The notes under the pieces are model-generated. The model saw only the letters and a program-made list of their open reading frames with translations. It was not told the DNA's origin and searched no databases. DNA of 64,000 bases from Trichuris trichiura (lineage: Eukaryota > Nematoda > Enoplea > Trichinellida > Trichuridae), in the NCBI GenBank assembly GCA_037903355.1, contig JBAJFE010000062.1, forward strand, positions 310,001 through 374,000. The letters run 5' to 3'. Position numbers and translations under genes: made by a program. Of the stretch, positions 14,540 to 57,492 are shown in pieces. Positions within the stretch are counted from its first letter, which is position 1; the number at the start of each line of letters is the position of its first letter.

Positions 14540-14744
14540 TGAAGTGTTTGACCCGCCTGAGCATCACTTAGTGTGCTGGCTGCTCACCAAAGCGTTCGCT
14601 GCGGTTGGCTTACGTTGGGCGAATCGTTTTGCCACATACCGTAAAAACCAGTCTTACGCAGTGTTTCGTTTTCGTCGGCTGCGCTAGCGATATAGTTGTG
14701 TCTTGTTTCGGTAGTAAACGTTTCGCGGGGCTTCAGACACAACA
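14540..14744 (+). repeat. 5' LTR of Ty3/gypsy element
   Basis: A 205-bp direct repeat starting TGAAGTGTTTGACCC and ending CAGACACAACA, so it has TG..CA ends. It appears identical to 17487-17691 by eye. The five bases before it, ATAAG, recur right after the 3' copy as a target-site duplication. Confidence 0.95.
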
Positions 14745-14758
14745 GTTTGGCGACGAGC
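14745..14758 (+). other. Primer-binding site of the gypsy element
   Basis: Immediately after the LTR comes GTTTGGCGACGAGC. TGGCGACGAG complements a ...CTCGTCGCCA 3' end, which fits tRNA-Ser isoacceptors whose acceptor starts GACGAG. The tRNA assignment is from memory of such tRNAs and no tRNA-Ser is in this window to compare. Confidence 0.6.
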
Positions 14759-17518
14759 ATGTCGGATTCATCTCAGATGGCGGAACTCCTAGCCGCGCTC
14801 TCAGAACAGCAGAGGACAATGGCAGCGTTGATAGCCAGCCTCTCACAGAACTCTCTCCGCGAAGCGCCAACCTCCAAGGCATCCGTCCCCAGCTTTCCAC
14901 CCTTTGACAGGACGAAAGAGACCTGGGACGTCTACTTCGCTCGCCTCGGACAGCACTTTGAAGCTCATAGGGTGGTCTCTGACAATCGAAAGCGTGCGTT
15001 CCTGCTCTCGTGGATCGGTTCAGACACGTTCGAGCTACTGCAAAAGCTCTTCTCCGGCGAGGAGATAGCGAACGTCCCCTATGATTCACTGGTGGCGAAG
15101 CTCAGTGAATACTGGAAGACGAGCGTGCACGTTATGGCCGCACGATGTTTGTTCTATCGGCAGTGCCTACAGCCCGGTCAGACGTACGCCGAGTGGGTTG
15201 CGAATTTGCGTGGCATTGGCAAGGATTGCCAGTTTCTGTGCCCTGACGAGAAATGCGGCAAGTCTTATCTCGACGGTCTCATTCGGGACGTTATCGTAAC
15301 GAACACGCCCGACGAACAGGTCCGCCTTGCAGCCTTGCAGCGGCCAAATCCTTCTTTGGCGCAGGTTATTGAGATTGCCGAAGCTCACGAGATCGCTACG
15401 AAAGCCATGGCGACAATCAAACAGCGCCCACCAGAAGTGATGGCGGAGGTTCAACAGGTTCGCATGACTGCTCGGACGGCTAAACGTCCAGGCAAAGATT
15501 CTGGCTTGCCGTCCTGCCCTCAATGTTTCCTTGGGCATAACAGGAGAGACTGTCGTTTCCGCCTAGCTGTGTGTCACAGATGCAAGCGTAAAGGACATAT
15601 TGCAGCTGTTTGCGGAACTACGTCTGATGCCGATTCGCCTCCAGTTCGATCTACTGATCGACCAAAGAAGAAGGCACCGCGTCGGAACTTCCGCTCCAAG
15701 ATAAATGAAGCAGCACGGCTTGTGTCACTCACGTCGACTAACAGAGAAGCGCACCGTTCAGAAAGTTCAGTGCATTCATGTTTTTCTTTGAGCGTCTCGG
15801 AAATGGCGAGCTTTCCGTCGGAATTATCGTTAACAAAGAGTCGACTGCCATACTGGCGCGAAAACCGGAAGATCTGGGTGTCCTTGGAAGTAAACGGTAT
15901 CCCGCTGATTTTTCAGGTAGACACGGGCGCTACTTCGTCCATGGTTGGCCTCCGCGGGTGGCGGCAACTAGGGTCCCCGCCGTGCAGCCCCACTAACCAG
16001 AAACTTTTCGCATATGGTGGTATCACAGTTCCGCTCAAGGGACAGGCGAATGTGCGCGTTATCCTGGGAGAACAGGCACGACGGCTGACCTTGCTAGTGA
16101 CTGACTTGGAACAAGGCTCCAACCTGATGGGACTGGACTGGTTGGATGCGTTCGGCCTCCGTTTGTCACCCTATGACTCTACCTCTCTGATTGAGGAAGA
16201 GCAGATGGGAGCGGCTATTAAGGACATCAAATATAAACGCGGGACGCACCATAACAACGCTGATGCTCTATCTCGTCTACCGATGGGTCCAGACCCGGAG
16301 TTCGACAAGGAAGAAGCCCACTGGACTGAGTTGACGGACGCCGACCTAGACTCTGATCTCTTTCCCGTTGATCGATCTCAGGTAGCTGAGGCAACTGCAA
16401 GGGACCCAGTTCTGAAGCAAGTGCTACGTTTTGTAACGTCGGCATGGCCACTATCTGTCAAAGCAGTTGCAGAAGAAATACGGCCTTATTGGAACAAACG
16501 CCATGTGATCGGTTTTCAAAAAGGTGTCTTGCTTTACAAAACCGAATTCAATCGAGTCATTGTGCCCTTAGAACTGCAAGAAAAGGTCGTCGCGTTGCTC
16601 CATCAGGGACATTGGGGAATCGCGCGCATGAAACAAATTGCGCGTCGTTATTGTTGGTGGCCAACTCTCGATGCAGAAATAGGTAAAGTCGGGAGTCGTT
16701 GTTCTTCGTGCACCGCCGTTGCAGCGGATCCGCCCAGCGAGTATCAGCCGTGGCCCATCCCGAAGGACCCATGGGAAAGGGTACATATTGATTACGCTGG
16801 CCCGTTTTGGGGTCAAATGTGGTTGGTCTGCATAGACCCCTTGTCCAAGTTTCCATACGTCTCGCCTATGTCAAAGACGACTACAAGGGCAACTGTGCTA
16901 GCACTTCAAACCATTTTTGCGATTGAAGGACTTCCCCGAACAATTGTGTCCGATAACGCGCCGCAGCTGGTGGCATCGAGTTTTCAAGATTTCTGCAAAA
17001 TGAACGGAATAGAGCATATCACGACAGCCCCCTTTCACCCTGCATCAAATGGCGTTGCTGAAAGATTTGTTCGCACCTTTAAAAATGCGATGAAGAAAGA
17101 AGCCAAGGCAGGTACTTGTAAGACAGAGGCACTCAAGAGGTTTCTCGTGACGTATAGGACTACGCCTGACCCGAGCACCGGGATGTCTCCAGCGGAAGTC
17201 CTCCACGGCCGACAGCCAAGGACTTTGCTAGCGTTGATGCTGCCGTCAGACATGCCTAAGGCCGACCCAAGAAGTCGCAGGACGCGCAGCAGCGGCAAAG
17301 GTCGCGAATTCGTCGAAGGCCAAATTGTAATGGTGAAAAACTTTGCTGCAGGCGACAGGTGGTTACGAGGAACTGTAGTCAAGCGACTCGGTAGCATGCT
17401 CTATCAGGTCAAAACGGCAAATGGCCTGCTCAGGCGCCATCAAAATCAACTTCGTCGCATCGCGCCAAATTTGGGTCGGGAGGAGATGAAGTGTTTGACC
17501 CGCCTGAGCATCACTTAG
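14759..17518 (+). CDS. Gag-protease-integrase polyprotein lacking RT/RNase H
   Basis: A single open frame of 919 residues. Order: a Gag region (residues ~1-240); two zinc knuckles from ~252 (CPQC..H..C, then CHRCKRKGHIAAVC); an aspartic protease with VDTGATSSMVG at ~387 and the partner region NLMGLDWLDAFG; then, at about residue 480, an abrupt jump to KYKRGTHHNNADALSRLP, the extreme C-terminus of RNase H. Integrase follows with its HHCC finger (HQGH..CSSC, ~614), catalytic Asp in VHIDYAGPF (~676), Asp in VSDNAPQ (~731) and Glu in NGVAERF (~766). No YxDD reverse transcriptase or RNase H core exists. The frame closes inside the 3' LTR. Start chosen at the first ATG after the primer site. A normal polyprotein of this clade would be roughly 450-500 residues longer. 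Confidence 0.92.
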   Translation: MSDSSQMAELLAALSEQQRTMAALIASLSQNSLREAPTSKASVPSFPPFDRTKETWDVYFARLGQHFEAHRVVSDNRKRAFLLSWIGSDTFELLQKLFSGEEIANVPYDSLVAKLSEYWKTSVHVMAARCLFYRQCLQPGQTYAEWVANLRGIGKDCQFLCPDEKCGKSYLDGLIRDVIVTNTPDEQVRLAALQRPNPSLAQVIEIAEAHEIATKAMATIKQRPPEVMAEVQQVRMTARTAKRPGKDSGLPSCPQCFLGHNRRDCRFRLAVCHRCKRKGHIAAVCGTTSDADSPPVRSTDRPKKKAPRRNFRSKINEAARLVSLTSTNREAHRSESSVHSCFSLSVSEMASFPSELSLTKSRLPYWRENRKIWVSLEVNGIPLIFQVDTGATSSMVGLRGWRQLGSPPCSPTNQKLFAYGGITVPLKGQANVRVILGEQARRLTLLVTDLEQGSNLMGLDWLDAFGLRLSPYDSTSLIEEEQMGAAIKDIKYKRGTHHNNADALSRLPMGPDPEFDKEEAHWTELTDADLDSDLFPVDRSQVAEATARDPVLKQVLRFVTSAWPLSVKAVAEEIRPYWNKRHVIGFQKGVLLYKTEFNRVIVPLELQEKVVALLHQGHWGIARMKQIARRYCWWPTLDAEIGKVGSRCSSCTAVAADPPSEYQPWPIPKDPWERVHIDYAGPFWGQMWLVCIDPLSKFPYVSPMSKTTTRATVLALQTIFAIEGLPRTIVSDNAPQLVASSFQDFCKMNGIEHITTAPFHPASNGVAERFVRTFKNAMKKEAKAGTCKTEALKRFLVTYRTTPDPSTGMSPAEVLHGRQPRTLLALMLPSDMPKADPRSRRTRSSGKGREFVEGQIVMVKNFAAGDRWLRGTVVKRLGSMLYQVKTANGLLRRHQNQLRRIAPNLGREEMKCLTRLSIT

Positions 17519-25916: not shown

Positions 25917-27588
25917 TTAATACTTTAGAAGGTTACTTAAGACTATGCCGCCGAATAGGATCAAGCCGGCGTAACGATTGCTACTGAACTTCTTCCAGCA
26001 ATCGTCGGGACTGTCTATATTCACCGTTATGATCTACAAAAAAAAGCGTCCAGCTAAAGATATTGTACCTGACGTACCTGACGATCATTTAGCGGCACTT
26101 ACCTGCCAGCTTAACTGCGCAGTTGCTAATGCCACACCGAGATAATAAGGCCATGTTTGGTCACAAATAGCACCGGTGACGAGCAAACAACCGGTCATGA
26201 GGGAACCGAAACCGGCAAGATACGTTTTTGTACGATTTCCAAACTTAATGGCCGTCGATTTGACGCCAATCGCCAAGTCGTCGCTTTTGTCCTGAAGAAA
26301 ACGTAGAAACCGAGCCGTAGGCTGCCTTTAACCTCACTTGATGGGCATATATAGTGTCGTATACTATGGTCCAACAAATACTACCGGCGTAAGCAGGAAG
26401 CACGCAAAACCAGTCAACTGTTCCGCATACGGCCGCCCAGCCAAGAAGGACACCCCAGTTAAACGTTACGCCTGAAGGAATGAAACCAGCAGTGCTAAGC
26501 GACAGAGCGAGAGGCGGATAGGTTAGACAGGTAAGATAAGCATCGGGCGAAAAGCATGCTAGTCACCGTAGGATAAGGCAAGCGAAAAGTAGGTATTGAA
26601 GGATACTGTAGACCGTCACCCAATTAGTTCAAAACGTTAAGTATAATCAGGTTCGATTATTTGAAAAGTGAAGTGCTATACCTGATGGGAGTAAATCGTG
26701 TCGTAAACTATCGTATAGCACACGCAAGCTGTATAAAGTGGTAAAACTGACATAAGCGCACTCAACGATGCATTCAGTTCGACCCAGGCCAAAAGAACAC
26801 CCCAGTTCGAAGTGACGCCTAGAATACAAGCAGTAAGCGTGCAGGTCGACCTAACTTGTGCCTTCGTGAAGGCGCTGCGGATACTTTACCTAGCGCAAGC
26901 TGGGGCCAAAAGGTAAACCTTTTGAACAACGGATATGTTGCGACAAGAGGAAGGCTGCAGATGCCAAGCAGGACTCTGCAATTGGAATTTAGGCGTAAAC
27001 AAGTAAGGAAATAGCCGGTGTGTACGAGGAGTCGTTAAGCTGAAGTAGTACAGCCAGCGAGCCGGTAAGGAGACCTCCGAGAAGACCAAAAGCTTGCAAA
27101 GTCGATACTTCACCACTGGCCAAAGGCCTAGACTTCGTTCTTGCCACCTTCTTGTCAAATTCTTTGTCCCAGAGATCGTTGACAATGCAGCTTGCTCCTC
27201 GCATCAGGAAGGAACCGATGCCAAAAAGAGCAAGTAATTTCAAGTCTGGGAAACATCCCGGCGTCGCGCAAAGAGCAATACTCCACGTGCAAGGCCAGTA
27301 CAGCAGAAGAGTCCCTAACAGAGTACGATTAGTTGTCAAGTTAGGCTTGTAATTTTATCCTCTCCTACCTGTTGGTTTGTCCACACGCATCAACCTCAAG
27401 TAGGGTTGCCACTGCCTTGGCATACGGTTGACAAAGGCAGTGGCCAGCTGATGTCCGCGTGAGCTTAAATGAAGGCTTCGCATCTGAACGAGCTTTTCCC
27501 ATTTCCACCAATGATTAAGCGCAGTAGCTTGCCTGCTTTGAAAGCTAGACAACGCAAAATAGCTAAGCGCCAAACCACGAGCGAACAT
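25917..27588 (-). CDS. COQ2: COQ2, 4-hydroxybenzoate polyprenyltransferase, with two alternative exons
   Basis: Integral inner-mitochondrial-membrane UbiA-type enzyme that attaches the polyprenyl tail to the quinone ring precursor. Minus-strand exons: 27588-27369, 27314-27026, 26975-26890, then either 26818-26682 (exon 4A) or 26471-26338 (exon 4B), then 26291-26103 and 26033-25917. With 4B the protein is 344 residues, with 4A 345. The N-terminus is a basic presequence. [16 protein letters not shown], the first Asp-rich motif NDLWDKEFD with [14 protein letters not shown], and the second Asp-rich region YDTIYxHQ+DKSDD (split across exons 4/5) are intact, and the tail [13 protein letters not shown] matches human. 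Exons 4A and 4B are homologous and phase-equivalent. Each has length 2 mod 3, so skipping both or using both breaks the frame. COQ2 is head-to-head with secernin (137 bp between ATGs). Confidence 0.95.
26338..26471 (-). other. COQ2: COQ2 alternative exon 4B (canonical ubiquinone type)
   Basis: 134 bases encoding [12 protein letters not shown] ... [12 protein letters not shown] once joined to the preceding G. It keeps the Phe of TFNWG and the Ala of IYAHQ found in human COQ2. Acceptor TTCCTTCAG, donor GTGAGG. It lies downstream of exon 4A in transcription order. Confidence 0.9.
26682..26818 (-). other. COQ2: COQ2 alternative exon 4A (candidate rhodoquinone type)
   Basis: 137 bases encoding [12 protein letters not shown] ... 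[12 protein letters not shown]. Compared with exon 4B it replaces Phe with Ser in the TxNWG motif, Gly with Ala in LLxW, and Ala with Ser in IYxHQ, with a largely different middle. Acceptor TATTCTAG, donor GTATAG. Both splice sites and the open frame are intact, so it is a usable exon and not a relic. Confidence 0.88.
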
Positions 27589-27725: not shown

Positions 27726-34630
<6,905 letters not shown>

Positions 34631-38742: not shown

Positions 38743-40968
38743 TTAGTTGGGTAGGGCGCAGCATTGAAATTTATTAATCGGTGCAGCCCATACTTCACTA
38801 ACCTCCACGCCATTGTCGCGATTTATAGTGGAGTTGCTCTGGATGTACAGAGCCTCCTTAATACACCTAAGATGTAATAAGTTTTCGTGGCATATGATCT
38901 TCGGGTGCGGGTCGAGTGTGCACCGAGATGCGTGCTCAACGATCACTGAGGCACTTATCGCGTTCTCCATGGCTTTTCGAGGGTCCGTTGTCGGTGGACG
39001 CCCTCGGCCGGTGGCCTGTATCCCATTGAGTCTTCGTTCGGCGTTCTTGTATGTCAACACATTCTTCATGTGTTGGCCGAATCTCTTAAGTAAAGTGTTG
39101 CCCGTTTCTCCTATGTAGGAGGCGTTGCAACCACACTTTATTTGGTAAATGACACCGGGTCTGCTGTCAAAAGGAACCTTGATCTTGTCATTTCTCACAA
39201 TCGAACGAAAATTACATGAACTTTTAAATCTCACGTTGAAATTTAAGGAGCGCCCCAGTCTCCTGATTCGTTCACTTAAACCACTGTAGTAGGGAAGGAG
39301 CAGCACCGGGCGTTGTTGGTTATCAGGCGGGGACGGTGATGAAGGTTTATTTTGTTGGCACTGTTTAATAATGGAATTGATGAATTTACTGGGGTATCCG
39401 TTACTGCATAGTGTGTTATAAATGTGTCTTAATTCTGTATTTAAATATTCGGGGTCACAAACCGTTAGGGCCCTGTCAACCATCCCTTTAACTATACCTC
39501 TTTTAACTGAAATAGGGTGATGAGAAGAAAAGTTTAGGTGCCGGTCCGAGTGGGTAGGTTTCCTATAAACTGTTGTTTTTAACTTATTCCCTTGTTTAAT
39601 GACTAAGACATCTAGAAAAGGGAGTTTACAATTATTTTCCTTCTCAATGGTTAGCGTTATCTGGTTGGGGAAGAGACTATTCAGGTGTTCCAAGAGAGTT
39701 TCTTCACTGCCTGATTTTATGATGGCAAAGATGTCGTCTACATATCTTTTGAAAATGATAGGAGGGGCACAGTCTTGCAGAGTGCTGAAGGCTTTTTCTT
39801 CGAGATGTTCCATGAAGATCTCCGCAAGTATGGGGGAGAGTGGACTGCCCATAGGCGCACCGTCCTTTTGTGAGAAGAAACTATCCTGGAATCTGAAGTA
39901 GTTGCCCTCGCGCATGCAGAACGACACTAATTTAACTATGTGGGTGGGGTTTAATTTCGTCCTCTGCAAGATGGTGTCATCTGCATCTAACAGAGTTTGA
40001 AGCAAGTTGATGGTATATTTTATGGGAACGCTTGTGAAAAGGTCTTTTACATCGTAACTGACCATGATGTCACCGGGCTGCATTTTTATGTCTTTTAGTG
40101 TGGAACAAAATTCTTTACAATTTTTAACATTGGACTCACGTTTACCGGTTAGGGGTTGGATTATAGTTTTTAGATATGAACAAAGTCTTGAGGTGACACT
40201 ATTAATGCTGGAGACAACTGGTCTTAGAGGGACCCCTGGTTTGTGGATTTTGGGAAGGCCGTAAAGTTCAGGGCACCTAGTGTTACTGATGTATGAGAGA
40301 CTACGGTTTATTTTAGAAATAATTGGGTCTTGGGGTTCATTGGCGAAGGAGTCTAACATATTTTGCAAAAGTTTTCGGGTCTTATCGGTCGGGTCTTGTT
40401 TTATGGGACGGTAAACGGGGTTGCTGAGGAGCTCATTTATCTTTTGTGTGTAGAAGTTCCTATCCAGTATAACAACCGTATTACCTTTGTCAGCCTTCGT
40501 AATCACAATGTCTGTTCTAGATTTTAGACTTTTAATGATCCCCCGTTCTGAACTGCTTAGGTTTGGGGTCGGACGATTGTTGTTGTTGTTGCGCAATACT
40601 AGGCTGGAGATGTGACCTTTAATTTCTTTAGCCACCTTAGGATCGGTTTGCGCGAGACCGTACTCTGTGGAGGCAATTATATCTAAAATCGGGGGGTTCT
40701 TAGGAGTGGGAACGAAATTTAAACCTTTGCCTAAAACTGTTTTCTCAATGTCATTTAGAACAAGGGAGCTGAGGTTAACGATAGTTTTATCTGTGTTATT
40801 GAGTGAAGATGATGGACGCGCTTGCTTATTGTTGGACTTACGGAACTCCCAGGAGCGGGAACAGTATAGGGATTGGAACTTTCTGTCTAGAAGCGCTGTT
40901 TGGTTTATTTTTATTAGGGAACTAGTATTTTTAATGTGGAATCTCAGTTGGACGAGAAGGTACAGTAA
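38743..40968 (-). CDS. Penelope RT/GIY-YIG protein, 5'-truncated but otherwise open (PLE2)
   Basis: An uninterrupted frame of about 740 codons without a proper start. In order: KGLNFVPTPKNPP near the N-terminal edge, the DKG motif (VITKADKGNTVVILDR), LYGLPKIHKPGVPLRP, SYDVKDLFTSVP, GAPMGSPLSPILAEIF, catalytic FKRYVDDIFAII, FLDVLVI, YRKPTHSDRHLNF, and the GIY-YIG domain with SYIGETGNTLLKRFGQH. A Cys/His-rich stretch (CTLDPHPKIICHENLLH) lies near the C-terminus. All RT catalytic residues are present. The only damage is loss of the 5' end, so it is a young dead-on-arrival copy. Confidence 0.9.
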   Translation of the reverse strand, partial: LLYLLVQLRFHIKNTSSLIKINQTALLDRKFQSLYCSRSWEFRKSNNKQARPSSSLNNTDKTIVNLSSLVLNDIEKTVLGKGLNFVPTPKNPPILDIIASTEYGLAQTDPKVAKEIKGHISSLVLRNNNNNRPTPNLSSSERGIIKSLKSRTDIVITKADKGNTVVILDRNFYTQKINELLSNPVYRPIKQDPTDKTRKLLQNMLDSFANEPQDPIISKINRSLSYISNTRCPELYGLPKIHKPGVPLRPVVSSINSVTSRLCSYLKTIIQPLTGKRESNVKNCKEFCSTLKDIKMQPGDIMVSYDVKDLFTSVPIKYTINLLQTLLDADDTILQRTKLNPTHIVKLVSFCMREGNYFRFQDSFFSQKDGAPMGSPLSPILAEIFMEHLEEKAFSTLQDCAPPIIFKRYVDDIFAIIKSGSEETLLEHLNSLFPNQITLTIEKENNCKLPFLDVLVIKQGNKLKTTVYRKPTHSDRHLNFSSHHPISVKRGIVKGMVDRALTVCDPEYLNTELRHIYNTLCSNGYPSKFINSIIKQCQQNKPSSPSPPDNQQRPVLLLPYYSGLSERIRRLGRSLNFNVRFKSSCNFRSIVRNDKIKVPFDSRPGVIYQIKCGCNASYIGETGNTLLKRFGQHMKNVLTYKNAERRLNGIQATGRGRPPTTDPRKAMENAISASVIVEHASRCTLDPHPKIICHENLLHLRCIKEALYIQSNSTINRDNGVEVSEVWAAPINKFQCCALPN

Positions 40969-42149: not shown

Positions 42150-45100
42150 ATGGCTGCGTCATCGATGCAACTTAGTGTCAAAACCAAGACGAAACCTTCG
42201 CCTGCTATCCTTCGTTTGAATATCGACCTTACCAGTTGTTCGGATAACGATACCCCGTGTTACGACGTGGCATCCTTAGAACAGCAAGCGGTATTTGCTT
42301 TTTGCCCTTTTCTCTCGCTCGCACGCTCGCTCGTGCGCCATTCGCTGCACGCATCTTTTCAGTTCGGTCGCGCGTTCACGGCCGAAATTCCTACTTTGAA
42401 TTCGTGAACATTCGAAGAAAATTCGCGTTCCACCAGTTAGATTGTTGCTTATTTCCTGTCATGCCGCGTTTCCAACGTTTGCGAAAGCAACGTCATCCTT
42501 TTCAGCCGTCGACTTTATTAACGCGCTGCTCTTATCGGTACAACTCTCTATGCGACGGCCGCTATTTTTCTTGCGCGCATCGTTGTGTTCCACGTTTTGT
42601 CTTCGGCATAGGCGCTGTTGCCAACAGTTTTTCCAAAAAGACAAACGGACATCTGTTACTGACCAATCGGTCGGCTTCTTCGCATAGTTTCAAACTCCGC
42701 TTCTGCGCTGTTTACCTACGTAAATTCCGACTGATTGTGAATCAGAAATGGCGCCCGCTGTTCATTTTACGCTTTCAGTTTGTGCGTGGGCGTGGGCGCT
42801 TTGCGGGATTCAAAATTTGTCGTTTTTTGTTTTTAAGCCCTACCCTCAGTCGGGATGTTCCGCTAAACAACTTTTTTCTTTTTCGCTACTGTAGAAACTA
42901 CGGTAAAACAAATGATTTTACCCTCTATTCGGGCTAGGCGGACTAGAAAGCTATTTATTTTGAACTGGCATTTGACACGGGCTGAAAGGTGACCATATTT
43001 ACTACACGTAAGGTATAAAGCTGCTTTGTATTCCGTTTTTCTGTTATTATTGCTTTCAAGCATTTCTCGATTAGCATAAGTTTCTTTAAGTGCTCTTAAT
43101 GACCGGTTAGTTGGAAGAGCTTTTAAAGAGACAGCACATTAAGCCGTGATTCACCAGAGTGCCCGTTTTTCATTTTTGTAACGTTCGCCTGATGTTTAGG
43201 CACTGTTACATACTAGTATCCGTTGTGGCGCGTGTCTTTAGCCTATTTCTCTAATCTACGTTTTATCGCTTCACTTGTAAATTTGTTAAAACCAGGCCAC
43301 ACCAGGCCTGATAACATTGATCCCGTCATTTTTGCTTGTTACCGTCAACACAATGAAGCGTAGGTACAAGGTATACTGTATTGACTTGTTTTGCTGACTG
43401 CGAGGCTTTTCGCCTGCATGCGGTCACAATTTTTCGTTTGACGTTCTTTCGTCGCTTTTTTATTATAAATACAGTAGAACCTCCGTAAGTTGACCACCCA
43501 AGGGACCGGAGAAAACTGGTCAACATAGGAGGTGGTCAATATATTGGAACTGTGGGTATAACTGGCTCGGCTGAACAGATTAGCATCTGTATGCGTTTTA
43601 TTCTATTGCAGAGCATCAATTGGAGGTCTATTAAACGGTGAGATGCATAAAAATAACACTGTAAAATCATGCATAAGCTTTTTAGGGGCTACACTGCTTG
43701 CTGAAAAAGGTATCAATTCTAGTCTGGTGCTTCTTCTTACTGCAAACATAAGCACCAAGGGCGGTCTCCGCGATAGCTACCGCGCTCAGCATCTTTGGAC
43801 ATTTTTCAGCAGCAAAACACTTCAGCTGCGCTAACACGCGCCCGACGTCCTCTTCCTTCAGCTTCTGTACCATTTCCGTCTCATTTTCACTTTCCTCCTC
43901 TACGTCGTCTTCTGGGCTCAGTCCCGCTTCGGCTAGTATAGACTGAAAGATTGCTTGTGGGTCGGGTTCGGTAGAAGTGGCCAATTCATCATCCATTGAA
44001 ACGAAATCTTCGAAGTTTACTCCTTCAATCTCTACTTCGGGAGTGGGACTATCAGGCCGGAGCTCGACATGATCCTCTTCGTCTCTGACGAATCCAGCTC
44101 TCCTGAAGCATTTCCGTATTGCCTCCGGTTGAACCACAGCGTCCAAAGCATTAATGGACGCAGCAATCGTAGTCGCTCCCGCAAATGAGCTGGTGTGTTC
44201 TGCTATGCCAACGATCCACCGCAGAAGCTGGGTCCGGTATTTCGCCTTAAACGTCTTAATTACTCCTTGATCTAAAGGCTGGGTCTTTGAGGTAGTGTTT
44301 GGGGGCAGGAATTTTAACGTGACATTTGTGAGGTCTTTCACGTGGGGATGGCTCGGCAGTTGTCTACTACCAATAAGATGGAACGTTTCATTCGCTTCAT
44401 CTGTCCGTCGACACTTCTTACCCACTCTTCGAATATGGCGGCTGTCATCCAGGCGGATTTATTTGATCTCCAAGTGGCAGGGAGGTCATCAGGCTTCAAG
44501 TTCTTAAAAGCTCAGGGGTTTCGTTGACTTACCAATGACCAATGGCTTCAACTTCTCCCCAGTTGCGCTAGCGCAAAGAAGCACAGTGAAGCGTTCTTTG
44601 GAGAGCTTCCCGCTTTTGCATTTATCGCCTTTTAGTACAAGACTTCTATCAGGCATAGCTTTGAAGAACAAGCCGCATTCATCAGCATTGAATATGTCTT
44701 CTTCCTTAAAGCCACTGGCGAAATGACGAAATTTCAAGATGAAGTCTTCCAAGACCTCGACGGGAACTTCGCTAGATTCGCCGCATAAGATTTTCTGAGA
44801 AATCTGATAACGGAGCTTGAACTTTGCCAGCCAACCGTTTGATGCTTGGAAACCTGTGAAACCGAATTCCACGGCGAATTTTCTAGCAATTTCCTGGATC
44901 ATTGGGCCAGAGATGCGTGCATTAGCTGCTCTCATTTGCTTAAACCAATGTAACGCTGCTTCATTGACTTGGTCCAGGGAGGTTCTCCTTTTTCTTCGCC
45001 GCGTCTCCGCTTTCCTTCTCATATCTTTCCAAGTACTCACGTTTACGTCTCTGGATGTTGCCAACGGTAGTCTTGCTCACATGAAACCGTTCTGCTGTCT

Positions 45101-50672: not shown

Positions 50673-52783
50673 TTAGTTGAGTGAGCAACAATTCGAGCGG
50701 GTTACAATATTCGTCCATATTTCATTTATTTCCGCTCCCTTTATCTCGGTTGTAGGTTGTGTTGTTTCTAATATACAGAGCTTCCTTAATTTTTCGTAAG
50801 CGTGCATTCTTTTCATAACATAAAACTTTTGCGCCAAGGCTTAGATTGCAATGTGATGCGTGTTCCACAACAGCCGAGGCTAGTATTGCCTTCTCCATGG
50901 TGATCCTTGGGTCTGATATTGGTCTTCCACGTTGTCTTGTGTGGTTGTTGCCGTTGCTGAGAATGTTTTTAGCGTTGTTATAAGTGGTTAACCCCTTTAT
51001 GTGTTCATTGAATCTGTGTTCGAGGGTGTTGCCCGTTTCCCCAATGTACACTCCTGAACAGGGACATTCGATTGCGTAGACTAATCCTGTCCTTTTGTTT
51101 TCTGGGATTTTCGTTTTGTCCTTCCGGAGAATTGTCCTGAGGTTGAGGAAGTCTTTGAAAAAGACTCGGAACCCTAACCGTTTTCCTAACTGGACAATCT
51201 TTTCTCCTAGTCCTGCCACATAGGGGATAACTAAGCGTATATCAGGCAAATTACTTAGTTGCCGTGATTCCTGGTTGCGCAGCTTTTGCTTGAATACTTG
51301 GTCAATAAAAGATTTCGGGTAGTCATTTTTGTAGAATGTTTTTCTAATGTAGTTGAATTCCGATCGGAGAAATTCTGGATCACATAAATTGATTGCTCTG
51401 TTAATCATTCCCGAGAGGATTCCGCATTACTGAGCGTGGATGGTGCGATGAGAAATTAAGATATTGGTCAGTGTGTGTTGGTTTTCTGTAAACTCTGGTT
51501 TTTAGTCCTTGATTAGTGCGAATAATCAGTGTGTCAAGGAAGGGGAGGGTTCGGTTTGATTCTTTCTCCATTGTAAAAACGATTTGATTGGGGCATACGC
51601 TGTTAAGAAATTCTAGAAACTGTTCTTCCTTTCCATCTTTGATAATTACGAAGATGTCATCAACGTATCTTTTGAATAGTCGTGGGGCTATTTGCCTATC
51701 TACCGTTTTCAACATTTGCCTTTCAAAACTCTCCATGAATATTTCGGCCAGGATAGGAGATAGTGGGTTGCCCATAGGGACACCGTTAGATTGTTTGTAG
51801 AACTTATTATCAAACATGAAGTAATTGCTTTCTTGCATACAGAATGATACCAACTTGACAATGTGGAAAGGATTTAACTTGGTTCTGGTGAACAAATTTG
51901 TGTCTGTATTGAGGAGATTGTATAGTGTATCGAGAGTTTTCGAAATCGGAATGCTAGGGAATAAATCTTTTACATCGTAGCTAACTAAGATTTCGTCCGG
52001 TTCTAGATGGTATTCTCGTATTTCGTTGACGAAGGTGTTACTATTTTTGACGAAGGACGGTTCTTTGCCAGTTAGTGGTTTGATCACCTTTTTCAAATAT
52101 CGGCTGAGCTCACTTGTGGTGCTGTTAATTGTGGAAACTATTGGTCTTAGTGGGACCTCCGGTTTGTGCACTTTAGGCAGGCCGTAGAGCTGAGGGGGTC
52201 TGTAATTTGATGTGAACCTAAGATGCTTCGCTATCTTGATGATTTCTGGTTCCTTGGTTTCTGTGCCGTATGTGATGAGAAGGGAACGAAGATTCTTCCG
52301 TGACAATTCTGTAGGGTCATTGGGCAAAGGTGTATAACTGTCGGTGTTCAAGATAGTTATCATTTTTTCGTTGTAGGTGGTTCTGTCGAGTAGGACAATT
52401 CTATTGCCTTTATCTGCTTTAGTTATAATTCTATCAGGCTGCCTTTTAAGTCGATTTAAGCAGTTGACCTCATATCGGCTTAAGTTTGGGGTGGTGTTGA
52501 AGCGGTGATCTAGGATTAACGTAGATAAATCCCGCTTGATCTGCGTGGCTTTCTGTGGATCAACTGAAGATAGGCTATCTTCAACTGAGGCAATGATGTC
52601 AAGAAAGGGTGGCTGTTTAGGAGTTGGTACAAAGTTCAGTCCTTTTCTCAGGATAGTTTTTTCACTTTCGTTTAGAGGTAAGGAGCTGAGATTTATTACC
52701 TTTGTGTTTAGGTCTGAACCAAGAGATTGTATTAATTTGTTAAGGAAGCCCCCGAAGGATGTAAAGTACAAAAAGCTACCCAA
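50673..52783 (-). pseudogene. Penelope RT/GIY-YIG protein, truncated and frameshifted (PLE3)
   Basis: Carries ITKADKGNRIVLLDR, LYGLPKVHKPEVPLRP, SYDVKDLFPSIP, NGVPMGNPLSPILAEIF, FKRYVDDIFVII, YRKPTHTDQYLNF and the endonuclease motif GVYIGETGNTLEHRF. A two-base loss near 51415 (just after HHPRSVMR) and a one-base loss near 50735 disrupt the frame. The conserved Gly-Ser of MGSPLS is Asn here (MGNPLS). Confidence 0.87.
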
Positions 52784-54858: not shown

Positions 54859-57492
54859 CAGTCGGCCCTCGTTATCCGCGGATTCTTTACAACGCGGTTT
54901 GTCCAGCGTGAAATAGTGACGTCATCTTTTCACAGAGACACGCGAACCGCTGGCCGGCATTATAATTCCACTAGTGTCGTTGCATGCCTGTGCAGCAGTG
55001 TGATCATCTGCGCGTTCGCGAAAGACTTTCTCTGCCCACAGTGCTCTCTAACCGTGCACAATGCTAATGAGGCCTTACCATTTTTCTAATTGTTCATTAT
55101 TGCTTCGTGCGCGTTGTCGAGCCTATTCGCTGTGCGCGAACATCAGTTTTCCTCCAGCATGGTAGGTTTGAACTCTCGCGTCGTGTAACTAGTGTCGCAT
55201 AGGAGGATGACTGACAGAAGGCAACTAAGTGAACAGAGCGGTTCCTCTAGGGCTAAGAGACAACGTAGCGTCCTTACCCTTCATGAGAAAGTAAAAGTCC
55301 TAGATCTTTTGAAAAGCGGATTGTCATGTGCCGAAGTGGGCCGCAAGATCGGGAAGAATGAATCCAGCATTCGTACGATAAAGCAGCAGGAAGCTGAGAT
55401 TCGAAGAAGCGTGCATCCCGACCCTTCACTGGCGAAAAGAGCTGCTGTAGTTCGCAACAAAGTCCTCGTGAAGGCTGAGAAAGCGCTAAGCGTTTGGATA
55501 GAGGACATGTCGCGGAAGCATGTCCCTGTCGACGGGAAAGTTATTCGGGAGAAAACGCTGAGCTTATATGAGCACTTCTCTGGCTCGGTTGCAGAGAACG
55601 AGAGAAAAGGGTTTATTGCTAGCAAAGGATGGCTAGCCAAATACGTGAAGCGCTTCAACCTCAAGAACTTAAAGATCACTGGAGAAGCGGCATCGGCTGA
55701 TTGCGTAGCTGCCTCGACATTCCCGGAGGAATTCAAAGAGATAGTGGACCAAAAGGGATATCTCCCAGAACAAATCTTCAATTGTGACGAGACGGCATTA
55801 TTCTGGAAGCAAATGCCAAAGCGCACGTACATCCACAAGAGCGCAAAGCAAGCCCCGGGATTCAAGCCACTGAAAGATCGACTCACTCTTGTGCTCTGTG
55901 GCAACGCTGCAGGACACATGATAAAGCCCGGCGTTGTCTACCGGACTCGTAATCCTCGGTCGCTCAGAAACAAGAACAAGGATTGCCTGCCGGTCTTCTG
56001 GCAGCACAACAAGAAGGCGTGGATGACGGTTATCCTTTTTACGGAGTGGTTTAACCAATGCTTCATTCCTGAAGCGAAAAAGTACCTGGAAAGCAAGGGG
56101 ATGGCTTTCAAGGTCCTCCTCGTAATTGATAACGCCCCCGGTCACCCGCAATCTCTTTGCTTCGCTAATGAGAACGTCGAGGTGAAATTTTGCCCGCTAA
56201 CTCGACATCACTACTACAGCCACTGGATCAGGGCGCCATAAAATGCATTAAGGCTACTTATACTCGTCTCGTATTTGGAAAGCTTCGTGATACCCTCCAC
56301 GCTAATGCTGATTGCGATCTTACCGGCCTGTGGAAGCGTTTCTCAATTGCAGACGCTATCGCCCTCATTGCGGAGGCAGTACACGAGATAAAGCCTAGAA
56401 CAGTCAGTGGTTGCTGGAAGCGTTTGTGGAGAGACGCAGTCAGTGAATGCGAGGACTTAGGTGCCATCGATGAGGAGGTCATGGGCATAGTGAATATTGC
56501 CAAGGAGTTGGGAGGTGAGGGTTTCTCCGACATGATAGAAGACGATATCAGAGAGCACATAGAAGATTGTGGAGAACCGTTCACCAACAAGGAACTCGAA
56601 GAACTGATGCAATCACCTACGGCCAGTGACGACGACGTTATGGAAGATACAGAAGCTCAAACACCCTCGGATTGGACGCTGCAAAAGCTGGCCACTATTT
56701 TCCGGCAAGCGCAGGTCCTAAAGGATATGATTGTTGAATATGATCCATCCATGGAACGTGGCATCATCGTTACACGAGGAATAACGGCTTCGTTGAAACC
56801 GCTACAGGATTTATTCGATGAAGCGAAGAAAAGGGAGAGACAGCTCCCTATAACAATGTTTTTAAATAAAGCTTTGGCAGCTGCGGAGCCTATCATTTTA
56901 AGGCGAGAAGTTTCGCTACCAACAAGTTCAAGCAACCCTAGGGCTGGCCGGTCTCCAGGGGATCTGCACCCACCTACAGAAAGTGGGTGAATTGTCTGAT
57001 TCCTGATGCGCCAAACATTTCTGCCCGTAGACGTTTTGTTCTATGTGGATGTGTTCCATGTGATGTTCAGTATTTCTGCTTAAGTGGGCCTGTGCATTTT
57101 ATATTTCCCCTGCTCTGTACCCATTCCGCGCACCAGTACATCGCTTAGCTCATTAAAGCAAGGTGATTCCAAGGCGTTTAAAGAAAGATCATCCTACTTT
57201 CGTCCTTTCTTGTATGTAATGGCTTGGACTCTGATGGCTTGCCCCACTGGACAAGCGCAGTCTCATTGATGTCATTATCTCGTAGCTAGATTCCGTAGTA
57301 CCAAGCTTCGAAGGATCACTAGGTATGATAACCGTTCCGGAAGGAATTCAAGGGGATAGGATGAAATACGCGGCTGGAATACAAGCTATTTGGCCTCTTT
57401 CATAGGGTATCCTATACAACGCGGAATTCGTTTTACGCGGTGTAACGCTCAAAATTCGGGACGAATTAACCGCGGATAACGAGGGCCGACTG
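54859..57492 (+). mobile_element. Tigger/Jerky-type DNA transposon 2 (near-intact)
   Basis: Perfect 23-bp terminal inverted repeats beginning CAGTCGGCCCTCGTTATCCG at 54859 and ending at 57492, each flanked by TA. Total 2,634 bp. It encodes a transposase broken by a single base. The family is distinct from the intronic Tigger at 43.5 kb, sharing neither TIR nor close protein sequence. Confidence 0.95.
55207..56990 (+). pseudogene. Tigger/Jerky-like transposase with one frameshift
   Basis: From ATG 55207: an HTH_psq-type motif (LLKSGLSCAEVGRKIGKN), a CENP-B-like second DNA-binding domain (ASKGWLAKYVKRF), then the DDE_1 domain with IFNCDETALFWK (first Asp), VLLVIDNAPGHP (second Asp) and, after the shift, PANSTSLLQPLDQGAIK leading to the third acidic residue region. 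The break is near 56186 in a T-run, where one base is missing relative to the conserved reading. The C-terminal ~260 codons are otherwise open. Loss of one base in a homopolymer could be natural or a sequencing error; if the latter, the element may be active. Confidence 0.9.

Follow-up and report, generated by a model that had tools for sequence, protein, structure and literature searches.

Paired alternative exons of COQ2 in a Trichuris trichiura genome, with serine at site 204 of the rhodoquinone-type exon

The window, a 64,000-nucleotide stretch of Trichuris trichiura contig JBAJFE010000062.1 (positions 310,001 to 374,000), contains a seven-exon COQ2 gene on the minus strand between 27588 and 25917. 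All of its introns are of the GT-AG type. Two of the exons, termed A and B, are homologous versions of a single protein segment. The features are listed below; residue numbers 204 and 243 follow the C. elegans numbering of PMC7434440.

27369..27588, minus strand, COQ2 exon 1, 220 nt, with the start ATG, an open frame and the donor GTAGGAGA
27026..27314, minus strand, COQ2 exon 2, 289 nt, with the first Asp-rich motif NDLWDKEFD and the same splice choice as in the public T. trichiura protein P0001
26890..26975, minus strand, COQ2 exon 3, 86 nt
26682..26818, minus strand, exon A (4A), 137 nt, the alternative exon that is e-type, or rhodoquinone-type, by grouping
26808..26810, minus strand, codon TCG in exon A, Ser at C. 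elegans site 204, where published e exons have Leu
26688..26690, minus strand, codon TCC in exon A, Ser at C. elegans site 243
26472..26681, minus strand, intron between exons A and B, 210 nt, the longest between neighbouring COQ2 exons
26338..26471, minus strand, exon B (4B), 134 nt, the a-type, or ubiquinone-type, alternative exon with Phe204 and Ala243
26103..26291, minus strand, COQ2 exon 5, 189 nt, with DKSDD, the remainder of the second Asp-rich motif
25917..26033, minus strand, COQ2 exon 6 and stop codon, 117 nt

When joined, the exons encode one UbiA protein (PF01040, E 1.1e-54), which scores 354.6 bits against TIGR01474, where the cut-off is 275.45. By these matches the predicted product is a 4-hydroxybenzoate polyprenyltransferase of the UbiA family. 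Exon 1 starts at the same point as in P0001, and the B isoform shares 339 of its 344 residues with the public T. trichiura protein, with the exon B segment itself unchanged. That public model contains exon B only and lacks exon A. All COQ2 matches in the 72.7-Mb genome (62 contigs) fall at this single locus, and the exon A peptide, searched against the same genome at E values up to 1, matched exons A and B only. This search found no second COQ2 copy with Leu204 elsewhere in the genome.

The remainder of the window carries mobile elements. Copies of a reverse-transcriptase element lie on the minus strand at 29896-32123, 38743-40635 and 50722-52783, with RVT_1 in three of the five ORFs scanned; their ORF ends read YIGETGN, a motif that resembles the GIY-YIG nuclease of Penelope-like elements but has no Pfam match. 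On the plus strand, 14696-17518 holds a retroelement ORF with an aspartic protease, an integrase zinc-binding domain and an integrase core, and with no RVT match listed. DDE transposase ORFs are present at 43682-45064 (minus) and 55192-56990 (plus), with DDE_1 in all four of the ORFs scanned and Tc5-type DNA-binding domains in two.

Exon A has the acceptor CTTGTATTCTAG/G and the donor CATCAG/GTATAG (slashes mark the boundary), and exon B the acceptor TCATTCCTTCAG/G and the donor CATCAA/GTGAGG. The two encoded peptides align globally with a BLOSUM62 score of 134, whereas 2000 shuffles average -16.8 (sd 10.1) and reach 22 at most, and 89 of 131 aligned bases are identical. Codon 204 is TCG (Ser) in exon A and TTT (Phe) in exon B; codon 243 is TCC (Ser) and GCC (Ala), respectively. 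The first-pass annotation had given the coordinates of both exons exactly to the base and had read Phe/Ala in 4B and Ser/Ser in 4A, as these codons confirm. Its description of two homologous exons for one segment also stands, but the segment had been placed before the second Asp-rich motif and in fact ends inside it (YDTIYxHQ/DKSDD).

The lengths of the exons, 137 nt for A and 134 nt for B, are each 2 mod 3. A reading with either exon alone runs to a single terminal stop, giving 345 amino acids with A or 344 with B. When both are included the reading of 1172 nt (2 mod 3) meets a stop one residue past exon A, and when neither is included the reading of 901 nt (1 mod 3) stops within exon 5. The joined readings thus bear out what had been proposed at first sight, namely intact splice sites, 2-mod-3 lengths and a frame kept only by one exon or the other. 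From the frame, transcripts with both exons or neither would be expected to be removed or useless, and selection would therefore be expected to keep one-or-other splicing.

How double splicing might be prevented was considered. Steric exclusion by a short intron is unlikely, as the A-B intron is 210 nt long and the others are 46-71 nt. Pairing between intron RNAs was rejected as the switch since the duplex energies are no better than those of shuffles (100, 165 and 131 of 200 were as low). The region contains one GCATG, at 26559, and no TGCATG; about one GCATG is expected by base odds and so the motif was set aside as evidence.

The same early stops, in transcripts with both exons or neither, could be read as the signature of a pair kept for another purpose, such as a poison exon that sets the COQ2 level by nonsense-mediated decay, in which case enzyme would come from exon-B transcripts alone. 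Such an arrangement would suit the public T. trichiura model, which is restricted to exon B. We regard it as very improbable, given that the A-only reading is fully open, that the public T. muris protein P0003 uses the A-type exon and that exon A is homologous to C. elegans exons whose function has been tested, as described in the text of PMC7434440.

To place the two exons, we assembled 127 proteins (120 of 1109 matches, these being the matches listed, five new ones out of a further 21, plus both isoforms of the window gene), from which 129 complete segments were obtained; six proteins gave none. Among these segments, from the matches listed, 42 have Ser243 (e), 86 have Ala243 (a) and one has Gly243. 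A profile test was constructed with columns 204 and 243 omitted and with the Trichuris and window rows excluded from training. Exon A scores +37.1, on the e side, and exon B -14.9, on the a side; leave-one-out misassigned one of 40 e rows and two of 83 a rows. The leave-one-out median for a-type rows is -50.6, and the score of exon B therefore indicates divergence in the Trichuris a exon as well.

A maximum-likelihood tree was calculated from 52 of the 129 segments, picked to span phyla. Exon A lies within a set of 23 rows (22 e and one e-like exon of Bradybaena) with support 98/100, and joins the e exons of T. muris, Soboliphyme and two Trichinella with support 95/97; exon B is placed among the a-type rows. 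With 44 columns and an unsettled bootstrap, finer forks of this tree carry little meaning. A test set beforehand had asked whether exon A would group with ubiquinone-type sequences; in both tree and profile it is e-type. Between exon A and its T. muris counterpart 42 of 45 residues agree, compared with 116 of 133 and 86 of 100 in the flanking parts. The higher conservation of exon A fits, at the level of sequence, an exon that is used. The idea that exon A is a decaying duplicate was rejected on these 42 shared residues, the open frame and the intact splice sites.

In the text of PMC7434440, all e exons examined are described as having Leu in place of Phe204 and Ser in place of Ala243. Exon A has the Ser243 of this signature but Ser instead of Leu204, and is a variant of the published e signature rather than a strict member. 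Among the matches listed, Leu204 is found in 39 of the 42 complete e segments, and the three with Ser204 are those of the window, Loa loa and Brugia malayi. A further 18 rows among these matches have an e-like start without a complete Ser243 segment. Eight of them have Ser (Onchocerca ochengi, O. volvulus, Thelazia, Acanthocheilonema, Cercopithifilaria, Elaeophora and two Dirofilaria entries) and ten have Leu, two of which, P0078 and P0089, are complete segments but carry Ala243. Incomplete e-like rows arise mostly from public annotation that splits or fuses the exon. T. suis, T. muris, Trichinella, Soboliphyme, Dracunculus, Ascaris and Toxocara have Leu204.

Set on the relationships among nematodes, this distribution makes two or more separate origins of Ser204 likely by parsimony. 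A single base change separates TCG from the Leu codon TTG, whereas the Phe codons are two changes away, which fits a Leu ancestor at the site. Serine here had been guessed to be a lineage variant; with Leu in T. suis and T. muris, and Ser also in filarial worms, the guess was a good one. The public B. malayi protein P0032 has Ser204 although the species is in the list of PMC7434440, and the rule in the text of that paper and this protein conflict. No mention of Ser204 was found in the text covered of PMC7434440, PMC8659336, PMC6656428, PMC6859908, PMC10400150, PMC11079024 or PMC5569373, and this literature text yielded no experiment on Ser204 or Ser243 alone.

As one genome was examined, TCG might be private to it or erroneous. 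The species would then have an ordinary Leu204 e exon, with Ser204 due to misassembly or to a rare allele. One base suffices (TTG to TCG), and the public T. trichiura COQ2 among the matches listed has no exon A for comparison. We nevertheless hold this to be improbable: the substitution is single and clean, the exon is intact in all other respects, and the same residue occurs in other worms.

Several other departures from the two signatures were noted. The e-like exons of P0089 (Bradybaena similaris, a land snail) and P0078 have Leu204 but Ala243, and have lost the opposite half of the signature. Three rows labelled as a-type have Leu204, namely these two e-like entries, of which P0078 is unnamed, and Hydractinia P0101. 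Exceptions to Phe204 among a-type rows are Leu in Hydractinia P0101, Ile in Branchiostoma P0077 and Met204/Gly243 in Antedon P0109, so that the published pan-eukaryotic Phe/Ala pair has exceptions too. An e-type COQ2 exon (ITLNWGVLL ... YSHQ) is also present in the ribbon worm Lineus longissimus (P0125), from a phylum that the passages covered of PMC7434440 do not name. The archaeal enzyme that served as template in that paper, Aeropyrum pernix UbiA (PDB 4od4/4od5), carries Leu at the first site and Ser at the second in our alignment.

We consider it likely, at a probability of roughly 0.8, that the locus is whipworm COQ2 with a one-at-a-time exon pair, in which the exon-B protein would prenylate 4-hydroxybenzoate towards ubiquinone, and the acceptor of the exon-A protein, towards rhodoquinone, would be 3-hydroxyanthranilate or a closely related compound. 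By extension from C. elegans work, one side of the active site, and with it the substrate, would change with the exon chosen, and Ser204 would do the job of Leu204 elsewhere. The worm is predicted to make ubiquinone with oxygen and rhodoquinone without it. Points that count against this explanation are the weak a-type score of exon B, the single genome behind the TCG codon, the break of the Leu204/Ser243 rule by Ser204, the failure to detect TDO, and the lack of a match to KMO, the enzyme needed for 3-hydroxyanthranilate, with four weak probes.

The last two points come from a survey of the genome for the gene set of rhodoquinone-making animals, taken from the text of PMC8659336 and PMC6656428. 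Kynureninase is represented by six collinear exon pieces that cover profile positions 21-399 of 400, with gaps at 106-151 and 272-292. No piece alone passes the whole-protein cut-off and one has an in-frame TAG in the stretch; all four matches of one open piece to solved structures are kynureninases. The nearest solved structure to SDHC is 3vr8 chain C (E 3.7e-35; the next is 1.2e-17), which we take to be the Ascaris protein, and SDHC thus appears nematode-like in sequence. ETFDH reads RPSF where the pig protein has RPSC; from the alignment, this Phe in place of Cys is likely to be the rhodoquinone-linked change described as Phe437 in the text of PMC8659336.

TDO, with a helminth Pro in its PLD loop, is given as the first enzyme of the pathway in the text of PMC8659336 and PMC6656428. 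A six-frame search of the genome with PF03301 gave no match, although a very split gene could escape such a search. An IDO gene is present instead (G000:C1:3763594-3764808, locus L011, minus strand; PF01231 E 6.5e-76, profile 2-411 of 412, one 45-nt intron), and its protein agrees with the public T. trichiura IDO at 396 of 399 residues. Public IDO proteins exist for T. trichiura, T. suis, Trichinella and Romanomermis, and IDO is therefore likely to be ancient within this branch. No KMO match was obtained with human KMO, the VioC model or a bacterial KMO, but these probes are weak, and an empty result that lacks a positive control carries no weight. The PF01494 probe found one exon, whose motif resembles that of MICAL; PF01494 also missed COQ6, which TIGR01989 found. 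Judging by this survey, the amino-group precursor would come from tryptophan via IDO and kynureninase, not TDO. T. muris infection raises host IDO, according to the text of PMC5569373, and host kynurenines might conceivably be a source of the precursor.

These gaps leave the supply of 3-hydroxyanthranilate uncertain, and they bear on a second account of exon A. The exon might be spliced in while the change from Leu204 to Ser has weakened or altered substrate choice, giving little rhodoquinone or the use of another acceptor such as anthranilate. The text of PMC7434440 calls Leu204 invariant, and site 204 is the sole difference from T. suis in 19 comparable residues. We judge a changed substrate to be unlikely, though less so than either an assembly error or a poison exon: the rest of exon A is conserved, as the T. 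muris comparison shows, and Ser204 occurs, among the matches listed, in nine spirurid species that retain the exon or part of it, which is unlike decay.

Returning to the ubiquinone/rhodoquinone switch, we tentatively propose, as an idea we would not yet favour over its negation, that Ser204/Ser243 constitutes a second working rhodoquinone active site that evolved separately in human-type whipworms and in filarial and Thelazia worms. Ser243, and not the Leu204/Ser243 pair, would then carry the switch, and the whipworm enzyme would be fed via IDO and kynureninase rather than TDO. The natural Ser204 forms offer a ready test of which residue, 204 or 243, controls substrate choice.

COQ2e and TDO have been proposed as drug targets in soil-transmitted worms since, in the text of PMC8659336, their active-site residues are shared by worms and absent from the host. 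With a different residue at one COQ2e site and TDO undetected, inhibitors shaped on other worms may not fit whipworms.

The coq-2 exon-pair system is known in kind, as the text of PMC7434440 makes clear. What is new is the exon pair in a T. trichiura-like genome, the Ser204 held in common with filarial worms, and IDO without detected TDO. The first-pass annotation is confirmed in its observation of the pair and supported in its interpretation; we infer the splicing-in of the exons and the quinone switch. Its account of the C. elegans literature, covering the exon pair, the residue changes and the link to rhodoquinone, agrees with the text of PMC7434440.

In that text, exons 6a and 6e of C. elegans coq-2 differ by Phe204Leu and Ala243Ser and are tied to rhodoquinone (PMC7434440; Tan et al. 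2020). Deletion of 6e abolished nearly all rhodoquinone and deletion of 6a lowered ubiquinone (PMC7434440), and F204L;A243S in exon 6a restored survival in cyanide, as reported in the text of PMC8659336. PMC7434440 describes such pairs in C. elegans and in further helminths, and its species list includes T. muris. The T. trichiura pair fits this a/e class by sequence, with one UbiA gene whose homologous exons lie in tandem where C. elegans has exon 6. In both animals the exons are internal, homologous, 2 mod 3 in length and within one coq-2 gene, with Phe204/Ala243 in the a-type and Ser243 in the e-type. C. elegans differs in having Leu204 and two exons of 134 nt, whereas the pair described here has Ser204 and lengths of 137 and 134 nt and is known from sequence.

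Among closer relatives, the e-form of T. muris (P0003) has its e-type exon at the same place, with the 42 of 45 residues noted above, but has Leu204. T. suis COQ2 (P0002) also has an e-type exon there, with 18 of 19 comparable residues shared and Leu at site 204 as the sole difference. The public models of T. suis (P0002) and Trichinella (P0004-P0009) run the e exon, whole or in part, into the a exon within one protein, and are probably gene-prediction errors at the exon pair. P0002 ends its e exon early, and at the equivalent position exon A of the window offers a possible in-frame GT donor. The e exons of filarial worms and Thelazia (Brugia P0032, Loa P0015, Onchocerca, Dirofilaria and others) share Ser204 (LTSNWG) with exon A, and both complete filarial segments, those of Brugia and Loa, also have Ser243. 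They belong, however, to a distant nematode branch and differ in the remainder of the exon. Exon A groups with Dorylaimia and not with Loa or Brugia, and Ser204 is therefore likely to be convergent.
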